Positions 6,498 through 11,656 of a stretch of DNA of 55,668 bases are shown here, one piece after another. Origin of the DNA: an uncultured Clostridia bacterium (GTDB taxonomy: Bacteria; Bacillota; Clostridia; TANB77; CAG-465); assembly GCA_947627255.1 (NCBI GenBank), contig CANQVI010000005.1:1-55668 (forward strand), given 5' to 3'. The notes below the pieces were generated by a model, which was not told where the DNA came from, searched no databases, and saw only the letters and a program-made list of their open reading frames with translations. Both the position numbers and the translations under genes were made by a program. Within the stretch, counting starts at the first letter, position 1. Every line of letters begins with the position of its first letter.

Positions 6498-6506
6498 AAT
6501 AAAAAG

Positions 6507-6537
6507 AGTAAGATATGTTAAAATATCTTACTTTTTT
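6507..6537. terminator. Bidirectional terminator
   Basis: AGTAAGATAT (6507-6516) pairs with ATATCTTACT (6523-6532), flanked by A5 on the left and T6 on the right, so it works for the convergent genes on both sides. The T run also contains the stop codon of the minus-strand gene. Confidence 0.8.
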
Positions 6538-6910
6538 AGTTATAATATAAAAACTCCTCTAATGAATTAGTCATTAAATCTATATATTCCTCTGTTTCCC
6601 AATTAACTAAATTTATATTAGCTATAATATCGTTATTAAGAATTACTTCTAAATAAAACTTATCATTTACATTATATACATATGTAGTATAATACTCATA
6701 TTCATTTACTTCCATTGGCTTATAATTCTTAAAATATTTTTCAAAAGTTATAGTTTCACCATTTTTTATTTTATTATAAATATCACTAACATAATCCATA
6801 GTTATATTATTTGTTTGATATGCTTTATTTTTTAATGTAAAGATAAGTGTTATTATTACTATTATGATAAATATAAAAAGGATACTTAAAATTATTTTAT
6901 TATTTTTCAT
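6536..6910 (-). CDS. Small membrane-anchored hypothetical protein
   Basis: This 124-residue protein starts with KNNK and one long hydrophobic helix at residues 6-27, then about 95 polar residues rich in Tyr, Asn and Glu. It has no recognised domain and no lipobox. Its start overlaps the stop of the HD-domain gene by four bases (ATGA), so it is the third gene of the operon beginning at 8520. The coupling suggests co-production with the HD enzyme; a functional link is only inference. Confidence 0.7.
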   Translation of the reverse strand: MKNNKIILSILFIFIIIVIITLIFTLKNKAYQTNNITMDYVSDIYNKIKNGETITFEKYFKNYKPMEVNEYEYYTTYVYNVNDKFYLEVILNNDIIANINLVNWETEEYIDLMTNSLEEFLYYN

Positions 6911-7686
6911 TTTTCTAATCTCCTATTTATATAATTATTTACAAAATCATAAATTTCTCTTGCTCTAGGTGTATCTTGCATTTTTTCAAACATCTTTTTT
7001 GTATATTCATTTTCTTTTATTATTTTTAAAGTTGAATCAAAATTAATATCACAGCTTATATATCCTAAAGTTACAATTTGAGATTCTAGTATAGTTTTTA
7101 AATCATATTTATATACTGTTTTATTATTCATTATGCTATTATATACATAGTCTGATATTATAGGCTCATCAGATTTATTTTTATAATATGCTAGTTTTTT
7201 ATTATTTGAATCACTTTCAGCTATTAATTTAAATCCATCTAATTTATCTGCATCTCTTAATAATGCAGAATATAAATACATTTTTCTATCCTCGATTTTA
7301 GGTAAATCTTGCATATTATGCATTAAAATTGAATCAACAATATATGGTCTGGCTTCATAGTCAATTAACTTTATTATTCCTTCATCTTCTAAAACTTTTA
7401 TACTAAGTTTAGCATGATTTTCAGAATATGCATCATTAAAAGTTTCATATTTTTCATATTGATAAAATCTTCCTATATCATGAAATAGCCCTATAAATTC
7501 AACAATAAACATATCTAATTTTAAATTTTCCTCTTTAGCTATTTGTAGAATATTATCTCTTACTCTATATGAATGTAATTTTTTATTTATAAAGTTTATT
7601 TTTCTTTCTTCATCAATATTATCATTATTTAAAAATCTATCAACATATTCATCAAATATCTTTTCAAATTTTTTAAAATCTTTCAT
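6907..7686 (-). CDS. HD-domain phosphohydrolase family protein
   Basis: A 259-residue soluble protein with an HD metal-dependent hydrolase core. The pattern is a first histidine in KLHSYRVRDN (about residue 53), the doublet in GLFHDIGRF (about 88), SENHAKLSI, a further histidine in SILMHNMQD and an aspartate in LLRDADKLDGF, the order expected for HD enzymes that hydrolyse nucleotides or phosphomonoesters. The RDADKLDG stretch resembles dGTPase or YfbR-like relatives, but I cannot assign a substrate. It lies three bases after the TIM-barrel gene and overlaps the following membrane protein. Confidence 0.8.
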   Translation of the reverse strand: MKDFKKFEKIFDEYVDRFLNNDNIDEERKINFINKKLHSYRVRDNILQIAKEENLKLDMFIVEFIGLFHDIGRFYQYEKYETFNDAYSENHAKLSIKVLEDEGIIKLIDYEARPYIVDSILMHNMQDLPKIEDRKMYLYSALLRDADKLDGFKLIAESDSNNKKLAYYKNKSDEPIISDYVYNSIMNNKTVYKYDLKTILESQIVTLGYISCDINFDSTLKIIKENEYTKKMFEKMQDTPRAREIYDFVNNYINRRLEK

Positions 7687-7689
7687 ATT

Positions 7690-8520
7690 TTATCCTCTAT
7701 TTGCTACCTTTTCTAGCATTTCAATTTCATTTATTTGGTCTTCTCTATTATCATAATCGTCTTCTGATACTTCTGTTATATAGTTACAGTCCCCCATATT
7801 ATATTCTTTTAATAAATTATAATCATACTCTAATTCATCTATATTTCTATGTACTCTACCATGAGTTTTTCTTACAACATATCCATCATTATTTGCTGTA
7901 TATGAAAAATGAACTTGATATATGTATTTTTTGCATAAATCAGGATTTAAATATTTTTTAATATAATCTTCTATATTTGATTTATTTATATTATTTTTAC
8001 AATACATATGGCAATTATCAAAACATACTTTAAGGTTAGGATGATTAATATATTCTGCTATTTTAAAGACTGCACATTCAGTCTCATCAAACATATATAA
8101 ATTTTCTAATAAAAATAATACGTTTTTTCGTCCCTCTATTATTTTTAATAATTCTCTTAACTTGTCAAGTGTTAATTCTCTATGTTTTTCAAAGCACCAT
8201 TGAGTATGATACAATAAATTTATTTTAATATTATATTTATCAGATAGCTTTACAATAGTCTTTAGCTGTCTTTCAATAATATGAATATCTTTAAAAACAA
8301 TTAGTTCAAAATCATAATTGCAAAGTGGTGGATGTATTGTAACTTCCTTTAAATCTGGCACTCTTTTCATTAGTTCATTAATTGCACTTTCTATGTCAAA
8401 ATCTGACATAATGCCATTTTCATCAAAAAACTGAATTTCTATTCCTTTATATTTTTCAACATATGGTAGTAATTTGTCTAATCCTTCAAAGTTCTTACTA
8501 GTTTTTGGATATATATTCAT
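7690..8520 (-). CDS. Sugar-phosphate isomerase/epimerase-like TIM barrel protein
   Basis: The 276-residue product resembles xylose-isomerase-like / AP endonuclease IV TIM barrels. Supporting strands include VTIHPPL, NLLYHTQWCF, VLFLLENLYMF with its metal-ligand-type glutamate, KVCFDNCHMYC and IYQVHFSYTA, each carrying a His, Asp or Glu at the position where these enzymes bind divalent metals. The substrate is unknown. The start was moved to the ATG at 8520, because GGGGAG at 8526-8531 lies five bases before it while nothing supports the ATG at 8544. It heads an operon with the HD protein and a small membrane protein. Confidence 0.72.
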   Translation of the reverse strand: MNIYPKTSKNFEGLDKLLPYVEKYKGIEIQFFDENGIMSDFDIESAINELMKRVPDLKEVTIHPPLCNYDFELIVFKDIHIIERQLKTIVKLSDKYNIKINLLYHTQWCFEKHRELTLDKLRELLKIIEGRKNVLFLLENLYMFDETECAVFKIAEYINHPNLKVCFDNCHMYCKNNINKSNIEDYIKKYLNPDLCKKYIYQVHFSYTANNDGYVVRKTHGRVHRNIDELEYDYNLLKEYNMGDCNYITEVSEDDYDNREDQINEIEMLEKVANRG

Positions 8521-8600
8521 TTTTTCTCCCCTTTTCTTTTCCAAGTGTTATTATATATTAAAGTTTTTTTTTATTCAATATTGGTCACTATAATTTCACA

Positions 8601-8635
8601 AATAAAACACCTACTATAAAAGTAAGTGTTTTATT
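8601..8635 (-). terminator. Intrinsic terminator after sseB
   Basis: AATAAAACAC (8601-8610) pairs with GTGTTTTATT (8626-8635); the inner bases extend the stem to about 16 pairs with one mismatch. It lies directly after the SseB stop codon on the minus strand. Confidence 0.7.
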
Positions 8636-8639
8636 ATAT

Positions 8640-9383
8640 TTATTCTTTAATATAAAATGGTTCGAAATTTTCAACTGCTTTTTTTCCAAATTCATTATCA
8701 AGTGCAGCTAAATTAAGTGGCATACCATTTAAGAAAGGTAAAGATGCACTAGCAATGGTATTATAATATTCTTTTTCATTACCATCTGAGTCAATTATTA
8801 CTAGATAGCTCATAACATTATCTTTTACCATTAATTGTAAATATGCTTTCTTTATAGCTGGAATATTACTAAATAAATCTTTTAGTTTATTTACAAGTTC
8901 TTCTGGATAGTCTTTTGGAATACCAATTTCTATCTCTGTATCTTTCTCTACAACGCTTTCTGTAGTTATTCCATTTTTAATTTCATTAATCATTTCTTTA
9001 GTAAATACTAAATTACAGCCTTTAGGATCAATAATAAATCCATCTAAATTAGCATTTTTAGTAGTAACCATAGCGTAGTCTTCAAAAGTATAAATTAATG
9101 ATTGCTGTTTTTGTTGTTTTTGCCATTTATTTACTTCTTTATCGCTAGTAAAAGCAATTAAGTAATTCTTTCCATCAGTAGTCTTTATTATACAAAGTTG
9201 TATTTTTGTATCTTTATTTATATTAACTTTTCCACCACCTTTAGGTGCATCCTCTAATATAACTGGGCACATAAATCTAGATTTTAAAACTTCTGATATT
9301 ACTTTGTTTTGTAACTCTAAAGTCTTTTCTTCCTTCATTTGATTAATTAATTCAATAAGTTTATTATTATTTGTTTCTTCCAT
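8640..9383 (-). CDS. sseB: SseB family protein
   Basis: The 247-residue protein has the two-part SseB arrangement. The N-terminal half includes FMCPVILEDAPKGGGK, TTDGKNYLIAFTS and a segment ending GFIIDPKGCNLVFTKEMI; the C-terminal half has EIGIPKDYPEELVNKL, a long conserved helix and a terminal strand. SseB was named for enhanced serine sensitivity in E. coli; its biochemical role is not established and it is widespread in Firmicutes. The second ATG (9383) is preferred since GGAGG touches the first one at 9389 but is six bases from this one. It ends in its own terminator. The CDF-like gene lies 59 bases upstream on the same strand. Confidence 0.8.
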   Translation of the reverse strand: MEETNNNKLIELINQMKEEKTLELQNKVISEVLKSRFMCPVILEDAPKGGGKVNINKDTKIQLCIIKTTDGKNYLIAFTSDKEVNKWQKQQKQQSLIYTFEDYAMVTTKNANLDGFIIDPKGCNLVFTKEMINEIKNGITTESVVEKDTEIEIGIPKDYPEELVNKLKDLFSNIPAIKKAYLQLMVKDNVMSYLVIIDSDGNEKEYYNTIASASLPFLNGMPLNLAALDNEFGKKAVENFEPFYIKE

Positions 9384-9442
9384 TTTCATCCTCCTAGCAT
9401 ATTATACTTATATCATAAAAAAATATAAATTGCTACTAATAA

Positions 9443-10333
9443 TTATATTTCAGGAGTAAATTCTACATATATCTCATCAAATTCATTTTTTAAATCTTTC
9501 TCAACATCCTTTTTTGCTTGTTTTAATTCTTTAAGATTAATTAATGAATTTTCACTTTTTATATATAATTCTATCCATATTTTTCTTCCTGTTTTTACTA
9601 CATCATAAAAAGTTATATTATATGGATATTTTTCTATATTCTTACTAACTATTTCCTTTATCTCATCAATTGTTTCTTCTTTTGGAGCAAATAAAATTAA
9701 GCTCTTAAATGACTCAATTACCATTTGTATTGGTTCTTTAAGCATTATTAAAGAAATAATAATAGCAAAAGAAGAATCTATATATGGTGCAACAAATGCA
9801 AATTTAGTATGTTCTAAAATATATTGAATAAAAAACGCAACAAACATACTAAATGCTGTGTACATATCTATTTTCCACTCAACTAAATCTGATTCAATAA
9901 CTGGTGTATCGATTTTTCTACTTCTATATTTTAAATATATATATGATAATATGCAAAAAATTTCTAATAATACATTAGATATTAATATACTTGATACATT
10001 TAACTTGCTACCACCATTTAATAAAATTACAATATTATCTTTAATTAAAAATAATGTAATAATAGATATAGATATACCTTTTATTATAATTATAAGCGAT
10101 TCTATTTGTGAGTACCCATAAGGCCTCTTTTCCGTAACTGGCTTATATATAAGCGGTAATAAAAAAGTAATTATTACTATAATAATTAAATCTGCTATTC
10201 CAAAAATGCAGTCCATAAGTATGGTTTTAGAGCCACTTAAAAAAGTTATAATCATCTCTAATAACATATAAATGGCGCTAAAAATTACCGAGAGTTTTAA
10301 TATACTCCCTTCTTTTTTTAATTTTTCTTTCAT
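9443..10333 (-). CDS. Cation diffusion facilitator (CDF)-fold membrane protein, divergent metal site
   Basis: A 296-residue membrane protein with six predicted helices and a soluble C-terminal ferredoxin-like domain (from about residue 210), the CDF/ZnT plan. The KRPYGYSQIESL loop matches the family RxPYGHxRxE loop and YIDSSFAIIISLIMLKE matches helix 6. The two metal-binding positions are changed: helix 2 reads FGIAD where DxxxD is usual, and helix 5 reads EWKID where HxxxD is usual. Metal transport is therefore uncertain. The gene is preceded by a glycine riboswitch and terminator, so expression should respond to glycine. The start has a GGAG site. Alternatives are transport of a different ion or a glycine-linked substrate. 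Confidence 0.75.
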   Translation of the reverse strand: MKEKLKKEGSILKLSVIFSAIYMLLEMIITFLSGSKTILMDCIFGIADLIIIVIITFLLPLIYKPVTEKRPYGYSQIESLIIIIKGISISIITLFLIKDNIVILLNGGSKLNVSSILISNVLLEIFCILSYIYLKYRSRKIDTPVIESDLVEWKIDMYTAFSMFVAFFIQYILEHTKFAFVAPYIDSSFAIIISLIMLKEPIQMVIESFKSLILFAPKEETIDEIKEIVSKNIEKYPYNITFYDVVKTGRKIWIELYIKSENSLINLKELKQAKKDVEKDLKNEFDEIYVEFTPEI

Positions 10334-10377
10334 TTAATAACATCTCCTACTTCAAATTGTCTACCAAATATGAATTC

Positions 10378-10421
10378 AAAAAAAGAATACAAGATGACCT
10401 TACTCTATTCATCTTATATTC
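10378..10421 (-). terminator. Expression-platform terminator of the glycine riboswitch
   Basis: Thirteen-base arms (10385-10397 and 10409-10421) pair with a single G-U wobble and are followed on the minus strand by seven T residues (10378-10384). It starts at the very 3' end of the second aptamer and lies 45 bases before the CDF-like start codon, so it is placed to terminate transcripts of that gene conditionally. Confidence 0.85.
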
Positions 10422-10597
10422 TCTGTCCTTTTGCCAGTTGGTTGTATCCTCGTAGGCGACGTTTCACACGTTCTCTCCAAAGTATCGTCAAATAACCTTC
10501 CTTTTGCCTGATAGTTTCAATTTTTAGTAGACTTACCTAAAAATCTTGCTTCTTCGGCTCTATACTTAAATAGTCTCTAGGGTTTTTATCATCCGAA
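10421..10597 (-). ncRNA. Tandem glycine riboswitch
   Basis: The minus-strand transcript carries the glycine riboswitch signatures twice. Aptamer 1 has GCCGAAGAAGCAAG (around 10545-10558), a hairpin with arms TTTTTAG / CTAAAAA, then TTGAAACTATCAGG and GGCAAAAGGA (10499-10508). Aptamer 2 has GGAGAG, a hairpin ACGT/ACGT, and ends GGCAAAAGGACAGAG (10421-10435). The GCCGAAGNNGCAA core of aptamer 2 is altered to GCCTACGAGGAT, so it is divergent. The ON or OFF sense cannot be settled, as the last P1 base and the terminator stem share only one position. This fills the only stretch of over 300 bases without a coding gene (10334-10666). Confidence 0.88.
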
Positions 10598-10616
10598 CAT
10601 ATTTGCTTACGTGTAT

Positions 10617-10645
10617 ATTATACTATAATTTCTTTTCTCTGTCAA
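10617..10645 (-). promoter_or_regulatory. Consensus sigma-A promoter of the glycine riboswitch transcript
   Basis: On the minus strand TTGACA (10640-10645), a spacer of exactly 17 bases and TATAAT (10617-10622) form a perfect consensus promoter. It begins 20 bases after the stop codon of the upstream Nudix gene and would start transcription near 10610, just before aptamer 1. Confidence 0.88.
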
Positions 10646-10666
10646 ATTATTATGTAATCTTTATAC

Positions 10667-11656
10667 TTACTGTTTCAAATATTTTAAAATTTCTTTAAAA
10701 TACTTATAATGTGTTTCTTTATATTTTTTTGCGTTATAAAATTTATCTACTTCAGATTTTGTCATCCATTCTACATCTGTTAATTCTTCTTTTTGTATAT
10801 TTAATTTTTCAATATCTACACAGCTTTCAAGATAATAAATATCTACAAATTTATTTTTTCTTTTTACAGTAGTTTTTAAAGTTAATTCTTCTTTACTCAC
10901 ACTAAGTCCTAATTCTTCATATATTTCAGTTATCATTCCTTCTATACTAGTTTGTCCAGAAATTGGATGACCTGATGTTGTAGCCCATTTTCCACCTTTA
11001 TCTTTAGTTCTTTTTTGCATTAACCATTTATTATTTTTTGGATTATATATAAATACAACTACTGTAACATAATATAAGCCTTTTGGTACTATATTTCCTT
11101 TTAGTATTTTCTTTCCAGTTAATTTTCTTTTTTCATCATATAAATCTCTATATTCTGTAAAGTTTTTAAAATATATCATATATTCACAATAAATATGAAT
11201 AAAAGAATAAATAATAGCTAAAATAATTAAAGGTATATTCTTACCCCATAAACCGGCAAATATGCAAGAAAAAGAATGACATATTGCCATTGGTACTTTT
11301 ATATGTAAAAATGGCTCATATAATAGCTTATATGCTCTTGCACCAAATATATACCTTATATATAGTTCATAATATAATATTAAAAAGAATAACATTACTC
11401 CAAATAATAAATTTGGATTTAATATATCAAATGAATTTTTACTAATACACAAAACTATTATAATTCCAACAAACGAAATTTTTTGAACTATATTTAAAAT
11501 ATTCTCAATTTTTGATACATTATTTTTGTCTTTTATTTTATTTTTTGGCTTAAAAACTAAAGTAGTCAAAATAATTGGTAATACTAATAATATAGCAATA
11601 ACTATACCAAAATATGGTGAGTAAAAATTAGTATACAAACCATAATTATTATTCAC
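10667..11656 (-). CDS. Membrane protein with C-terminal Nudix hydrolase domain
   Basis: The 329-residue product joins about five or six membrane helices (residues 12-165) to a soluble Nudix domain (from about 185). The Nudix box spans GHPISGQTSIEG then MITEIYEELGL: the metal-binding EIYEE core is intact while the usual Glu and Arg earlier in the box are Gln and Thr. KWATTSGHPISGQ resembles the isopentenyl-diphosphate-isomerase-like group. Nudix enzymes cleave nucleoside diphosphates linked to another moiety; the substrate here is unknown, and the membrane part suggests a lipid-linked or membrane-near one. Translation starts at GTG (11656), with GGAG eight bases before it; a nearby ATG in another frame stops at once. 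Confidence 0.78.
   Translation of the reverse strand: MNNNYGLYTNFYSPYFGIVIAILLVLPIILTTLVFKPKNKIKDKNNVSKIENILNIVQKISFVGIIIVLCISKNSFDILNPNLLFGVMLFFLILYYELYIRYIFGARAYKLLYEPFLHIKVPMAICHSFSCIFAGLWGKNIPLIILAIIYSFIHIYCEYMIYFKNFTEYRDLYDEKRKLTGKKILKGNIVPKGLYYVTVVVFIYNPKNNKWLMQKRTKDKGGKWATTSGHPISGQTSIEGMITEIYEELGLSVSKEELTLKTTVKRKNKFVDIYYLESCVDIEKLNIQKEELTDVEWMTKSEVDKFYNAKKYKETHYKYFKEILKYLKQ

Follow-up and report, generated by a model that had tools for sequence, protein, structure and literature searches.

A tandem riboswitch of the glycine family with both ligand pockets altered stands directly in front of a gene for a membrane protein with the cation diffusion facilitator (CDF) fold, in a 55,668-nucleotide stretch of DNA (the window) from a small gut bacterium with a genome of 1.4 Mb. 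The pairing of riboswitch and gene is real, conserved and unusual, and the two are inherited together. We tentatively favour the reading that the remodelled pockets belong to an ON switch whose ligand, a small amino compound, is also the substrate of the exporter under its control; this compound is likelier to be related to glycine than to be glycine. On the identity of the ligand taken separately, the balance tips slightly towards a molecule other than glycine, with glycine a credible minority candidate. A more specific form of the proposal is held more loosely: that an orphan class of riboswitches descended from the tandem glycine riboswitch senses a non-glycine molecule, that the CDF-fold protein, with a conserved Lys and Asp instead of a metal site, exports this molecule, and that the core of aptamer 2 doubles as an anti-Shine–Dalgarno strand. 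The proposal builds on computed features of the locus (RNA family, promoter, terminator, alternative pairings, pocket changes, loss of metal-site residues and co-inheritance); from these we infer the ON direction, the class of ligand and the direction of transport.

Locus layout and riboswitch family

The features of the locus, all on the reverse strand, are listed in the order of transcription.

10617..10645 (-), sigma-A promoter TTGACA-17-TATAAT, 12/12 consensus match
10598..10605 (-), 5′ switching strand CAAAUAUG, which can pair with AUACUUUG (anti-P1) or with CAUAUUUG (outer helix)
10419..10596 (-), tandem glycine-type riboswitch aptamers with leader–linker P0; RF03166, 154 bits, model positions 1-177 of 177
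10507..10558 (-), core of aptamer 1, with A(10551).A(10512) as pocket pair 70-80
10421..10482 (-), aptamer 2; P1 is CUUUG/CAGAG, altered core GCCUACGAGG-AUACAA-CCAACUGGC at 10433-10457
10452..10463 (-), anti-Shine–Dalgarno strand AACGUCGCCUAC; 11 pairs with 10339-10350 in six of six species
10378..10423 (-), intrinsic terminator, 13 pairs plus seven T; its 5′ arm has GAG in common with the 3′ strand of aptamer-2 P1
10365..10372 (-), post-terminator strand CAUAUUUG
10339..10350 (-), Shine–Dalgarno region GUAGGAGAUGUU
9443..10333 (-), gene for a CDF-fold membrane protein of 296 amino acids; PF01545, with the canonical metal sites for the most part gone
8640..9389 (-), the following gene on this strand, with an SseB domain; PF07179 and PF14581

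Of the 45 promoter-like sites listed in the region 6500-10750, where shuffled sequences give 40.2 such sites, this promoter alone matches at 12/12, and both of its boxes are kept in the alignment of six species. Searching the window with cmscan returned a single match, to RF03166 (glycine-GGAnGA), which spans the full length of the model at 154 bits against a gathering cut-off of 110 bits; its E value of 1.4e-33 rules out a chance occurrence. RF00504 (cut-off 32 bits) scores each aptamer individually, at 43 and 32.2 bits. Over the whole 1.4-Mb genome, RF03166 gave one match, and RF00504 at an E value of 0.001 gave none beyond the two aptamers. The RNA is therefore a member of the tandem glycine-riboswitch family (RF00504/RF03166), above gathering scores. 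The leader contains GGCAAAAGGA twice and GCCGAAG once, and a leader–linker kink-turn P0 is present as judged by sequence and model alignment: the P0 pairs and the GGAUGA leader motif align, with GAAUGA and GGAAGA in its place in two of the relatives (L021 and L020, respectively).

These results confirm what the sequence-only reading had observed, namely a perfect sigma-A promoter, glycine-aptamer signatures and a 13-bp terminator with seven T residues ahead of a CDF-type gene. That reading also described the gene as standing alone, which holds less well: the SseB-domain gene begins 53 nt downstream of it on the same strand. The two genes adjoin in all six carriers and are possibly co-transcribed.

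The RNA resembles the canonical tandem glycine riboswitch (RF00504; Bacillus subtilis gcvT, Vibrio cholerae) in its two aptamers, its leader–linker P0 and the position of the terminator beside aptamer-2 P1. It differs in having A.A in both pockets, a rebuilt aptamer-2 core and a conserved anti-Shine–Dalgarno helix, and in its target, which is a PF01545 gene and neither a glycine cleavage gene nor an AGCS symporter gene. Compared with RF03166, the full-length match includes an aptamer-2 core that nearly follows the consensus GCCuAcGaGGcuAuAACCAACUGGc of the model; in contrast, aptamer-1 positions 80-81 (window 10511-10512) are A and U, unlike the g and A of the consensus, which may make the RNA of the genus a sub-variant within RF03166. 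Glycine riboswitch variants were reportedly described by Weinberg et al. in 2017, and our guess is that RF03166 is one of them. In the open-access literature searched, one paper names RF03166, when commenting on thresholds for scores.

Ligand pockets

Six leaders were aligned with 29 tandem riboswitches of other Clostridia that match RF03166. The numbering of the pocket pairs 70-80 (aptamer 1) and 177-209 (aptamer 2) follows the V. cholerae aptamer sequence as we take it to be, which agrees with the residues named in PMC12060979. At these pairs, A.A is found in all 12 aptamers of the six species versus 0 of the 58 aptamers in the 29 comparison loci, in which the aptamer-1 pair is G-C, A-U or G-U in 28 cases and A-C in one, and the aptamer-2 pair is G-C, A-U or G-U without exception. 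In the window, the aptamer-2 pair is A(10450).A(10439) and position 210 is A(10438). Aptamer 2 of the six species has C175, C208, A210 and U212, where the comparison loci have A, U, U and A; C175 is present in 4 of 15 further loci too (L104, L105, L106 and L117). This altered core is the same in the six species except for one loop base. Aptamer 1 retains U81, G69 and most canonical core nucleotides. Measured against an arrangement of one intact aptamer with a reduced ‘ghost’ partner, aptamer 1 is nearly canonical apart from A.A, and aptamer 2 retains P1, GGAGAGA and GGCAAAAGGAC. Both ligand pockets are thus altered relative to the canonical glycine riboswitch, whose pocket nucleotides are not kept in full in the two aptamers.

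A figure legend of PMC12060979 places the 70-80/177-209 pair among the residues within 4 Å of glycine. The accessible text of the same paper cites a crystal study in which the equivalent of U81 touches the glycine carboxyl group, and presents data of its own that favour a different orientation of glycine. Aptamer 2 is without U210, the equivalent of the carboxyl-touching residue. With A.A in both aptamers and U210 missing from aptamer 2, glycine is doubtful as the ligand; glycine riboswitch core variants that reject glycine are reported in PMC9481103.

The A.A mismatch by itself was rejected as proof of a new ligand because of a single further locus, L107. A wider motif scan of 150 riboswitches, in which no core was recognized in 6, a single core in 34 and three cores in 11, with some odd pairs being false matches, gave A.A in 1 of 253 core pairs of other loci among the matches listed. 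This is aptamer 2 of L107, the one other riboswitch with such a core among these matches, which stands before a PTS_EIIC_2 gene. As two comparison riboswitches without A.A also precede PTS_EIIC_2-like genes, a single A.A pocket may be tolerated. The glycine-type riboswitches found near PTS_EIIC_2-like genes are those of L107, L065 and L089.

Glycine could still be the ligand if aptamer 1 binds it, aptamer 2 acts as a non-binding switch partner for the anti-Shine–Dalgarno and terminator pairings, and the CDF-fold protein carries glycine out of the cell. The intact U81 and most of the core nucleotides of aptamer 1 agree with this account, as do a B. subtilis aptamer-2 pocket mutation that leaves regulation in place (accessible text of PMC5666159) and the single aptamers with a ‘ghost’ partner described in the accessible text of PMC9481103. 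Glycine decarboxylase (GDC-P) was found in 0 of the 28 genomes of the genus, with a control that was positive in 10 of 14 named genomes, and an AGCS symporter was found in none of the six carriers. Two common glycine-riboswitch targets were thus not found in the carriers, and another outlet for glycine would make sense. However, the pocket of aptamer 1 is mismatched as well, with A.A next to the ligand in all six species, and the altered aptamer-2 core is nearly invariant among them, which seems more conservation than a decayed partner should require. We consider glycine sensing of this kind somewhat less likely than the favoured reading.

CDF-fold protein

By family profile and by fold, the protein belongs to the CDF (cation efflux) family. 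Its gene (9443-10333) matches PF01545 (Cation_efflux) with an E value of 3.1e-26, and TIGR01297 scores 88.8 bits against a cut-off of 82.35. With an AlphaFold2 model (pLDDT 84.4, pTM 0.72) as the query, the best Foldseek match was YiiP (E value of 3.9e-11, TM-score of 0.55), and YiiP and ZnT structures were matched at TM-scores of about 0.5–0.7.

The likeness to FieF/YiiP in family and fold contrasts with the metal sites, in which most of the residues checked are replaced. FieF positions were placed by a phmmer alignment to FieF together with a family alignment of 47 proteins; the structure-prediction alignment holds 45 of the 47, the partial homologues L058 and L064 being left out. In the site-A quartet (D45, D49, H153 and D157), two of the four ligands are lost. 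D45 is replaced by Phe in all six genus members and by Tyr, Phe, Cys or Trp in the 39 aligned others; H153 is replaced by Glu, Val, Ala or Gly in the genus and is never His in the 47. D49 is kept as Asp in all six genus members and is Asp in 35 and Glu in 4 of the others (Asp or Glu in 45 of 45 aligned), and the D157 position is Asp in 45 of 47 proteins (five of six in the genus). With what we take to be the FieF numbering of sites B and C, the site-B residues D68, H71 and H75 are replaced by Thr or Ser, Arg or Lys, and Tyr or Phe, respectively, and the positions of H232 and H248, the two site-C residues checked, have no His in any of the 47. The FieF Q155 position is Lys in 44 of 47 proteins and the FieF Y154 position is Trp in all 47; D41 (Asp in 45 of 45), E68 and W153 are invariant where aligned, and K154 is found in 44 of 47. 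The genus proteins contain 0–1 histidines. Replacement of most of the metal-site residues checked points to a changed substrate, and the CDF-fold protein is probably no longer a metal transporter.

It might nevertheless still carry a divalent metal, in which case the riboswitch would couple the efflux of that metal either to glycine or to some metabolite linked to metals. Family and fold are compatible with such a role, as are the acidic residues retained at D41, D49 and D157, and site-A quartets are known to vary among CDF proteins (HD-HD, HD-ED, ND-DD, DD-DD, DD-HD, EN-HD and HH-DH in the accessible text of PMC5703985). The quartet found here is absent from those named in that text; moreover, the residues in place of D45 and H153 are for the most part aromatic or hydrophobic, Lys occupies the Q155 position, the checked site-B and site-C ligands are gone and the genus proteins are almost devoid of histidine, all of which make metal transport improbable. 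The same replacements render doubtful an earlier suggestion, from the sequence-only reading, of a metal used with glycine metabolism.

Alternative pairings and proposed switch

The terminator has 13 counted pairs (10423-10411 with 10395-10383) and seven T residues at 10384-10378, and is lengthened to 16 pairs by RNAfold. A simple terminator scan, the rules of which are three G-C pairs and a loop of ≤8, did not list it, so its support is pairing and covariation: 5 of the 13 pairs are changed on both sides across the six leaders.

The Shine–Dalgarno region GUAGGAGAUGUU forms 11 bp with AACGUC-G-CCUAC, which belongs to P2 and the altered aptamer-2 core. This anti-Shine–Dalgarno helix is paired in all six leaders. 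Ten of its 11 pairs never vary, and the outer pair is compensatory: the Shine–Dalgarno region is the same in all six except for its last base in L020, in which both sides of this pair are altered. The duplex has a computed energy of −14.7 to −15.1 kcal/mol, and 0–2 of 500 shuffles per leader are as stable. Because the altered aptamer-2 core doubles as the anti-Shine–Dalgarno strand, one RNA element would be both sensor and translational switch.

For the six leaders, RNAalifold returned the terminator, anti-Shine–Dalgarno and anti-P1 helices together. In the anti-P1 helix, 7 nt of CAAAUAUG pair with AUACUUUG, which contains the 5′ strand of aptamer-2 P1; four of these pairs lie in P1, and none ever varies. 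In the outer helix (CAAAUAUG with CAUAUUUG), 95.8% of cells are paired, and one pair shows a two-sided change in L022 and is unpaired in two of six leaders. Of 300 shuffles for each of the six species, 0, 0, 8, 51, 34 and 20 were as stable as the outer helix, which makes this helix weak in L020 (51), L023 (34) and L019 (20). For the terminator, anti-Shine–Dalgarno and outer helices combined, 98.4% of 192 cells pair. Seven pairs are changed on both sides (five in the terminator and one in each of the other two helices), versus 0 of 500 shuffles reaching this number and ≤2 such pairs in slid versions; the observed number of further pair types was reached by 46 of 500 shuffles. The alternative pairings are computed, possible folds.

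In energies that leave out ligand and tertiary contacts, the OFF fold is better by 4.8–6.6 kcal/mol than a fold in which aptamer 2 is enforced up to the terminator, and by 10.6–13.5 kcal/mol in the read-through RNA. A ligand bound by aptamer 2 is accordingly expected to activate the gene, and it should relieve both the terminator and the anti-Shine–Dalgarno helix, as both use aptamer-2 strands. When aptamer 2 is enforced in the window RNA, a 12-pair hairpin still precedes the U tract, so release of termination may be partial. The leader is thus probably a ligand-induced ON switch that acts at two levels, the direction being predicted from these folds.

Without ligand, the 5′ end of the leader would pair with the 5′ strand of aptamer-2 P1 and the terminator would capture part of its 3′ strand; in read-through transcripts, the altered aptamer-2 core would pair with the Shine–Dalgarno region, so that the gene is off at two levels. 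Bound ligand would stabilize P1, P2 and P3 of aptamer 2, weaken the terminator and free the Shine–Dalgarno region, turning the gene on, and the transporter, its normal metal site gone, would expel the riboswitch ligand. Guanidine and fluoride switches form riboswitch–exporter pairs. The pair described here would share ligand-induced export with them, a likeness that for the window is predicted. The earlier idea that the protein exports or senses glycine is partly supported: export fits the predicted ON logic, but glycine is the doubtful part.

An import function, with the ligand turning the switch off, has a precedent in Streptococcus pyogenes, in which a SAF symporter gene and, behind it in one transcript, a ‘cation efflux’ gene are both repressed through a glycine riboswitch (accessible text of PMC5829553), but is improbable here, as the terminator and anti-Shine–Dalgarno helix both use aptamer-2 strands that the ligand should withdraw and the one consensus fold computed with RNAalifold holds no separate anti-terminator. 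The S. pyogenes system, as far as that text describes it, resembles the window in having a CDF-type gene in a glycine-riboswitch transcript; there the gene is second and repressed by glycine, whereas the CDF-fold gene of the window is first and predicted to be switched on.

If the ligand of the switch is not glycine, the RNA shows that one of the most intensively studied riboswitches has changed its specificity in nature, and the closely linked gene narrows the search for the ligand. If it is glycine, the protein becomes a candidate for a bacterial exporter of glycine; no paper in the open-access literature searched pairs the phrase ‘glycine exporter’ with ‘bacteria’. With either ligand, members of this branch of CDF-fold proteins (46 relatives found) may be mistaken for metal pumps.

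In the six leaders, the sequence AUUUG-G(U/A)AGA-CAA, which resembles a short hairpin, lies right before the Shine–Dalgarno region (window 10356-10369).

Conservation and distribution

A search of 95 relatives with RF03166 gave matches in six, each of which is one of the 28 genomes of the genus; the full-length CDF gene is present in the same six, and RF00504 matched in these six only over 36 genomes of the family. Between the window and the other five, the riboswitch is 91–97% identical and the protein 62–76%. Remnants occur beside sseB in two further genomes, as fragments of both riboswitch and CDF gene in G019 (L129) and as a fragment of the CDF gene in G006 (L131).

A motif scan of genome contigs yielded 46 relatives of the CDF-fold protein, with no Streptococcus record among them. 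Five, all of the genus, carry RF03166; at the other 41, no glycine riboswitch reached the gathering score, L058 and L064 being without upstream DNA. The RNA–gene unit was thus seen in one genus only, and the protein branch is wider. The neighbours of ten homologues, hand-picked from 218 listed open reading frames, had no common theme.

An exact pattern of the variant aptamer-2 core matched 6 of 385 genomes of the order, all of the window’s genus, and gave 0 matches in IMG/VR contigs. With RF03166, 391 genomes of the class gave one match over the cut-off, the window’s own, among the matches listed, and 398 genomes of the phylum gave 11 including the window’s own (10 in the 397 others). Fifteen other matches from the phylum (L104–L118) are all without the variant core, so a score above the RF03166 cut-off does not tell variant RNAs from ordinary ones.

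A CDF gene lies downstream of the RNA in 0 of 144 other RF03166-matching loci among the matches listed, with flanks of about 1.5–2 kb (a few hundred bases in five loci). On this count, the view that glycine riboswitches are generally linked to CDF genes was rejected. The one CDF frame that hmmsearch detected in the 144 loci, at L080, is on the opposite strand and points away from the riboswitch. A CDF target is unexpected, as the sequence-only reading had said, on the evidence of these loci, but it is not without precedent given the S. pyogenes gene described in the accessible text of PMC5829553. In the open-access literature searched, no paper was found that joins ‘glycine riboswitch’ and ‘cation diffusion facilitator’, and two were found that link the former with ‘cation efflux’.

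Among the 28 genomes of the genus, an AGCS symporter is present in 14 and SseB in the other 14, an exactly complementary distribution that suggests two subclades within the genus.
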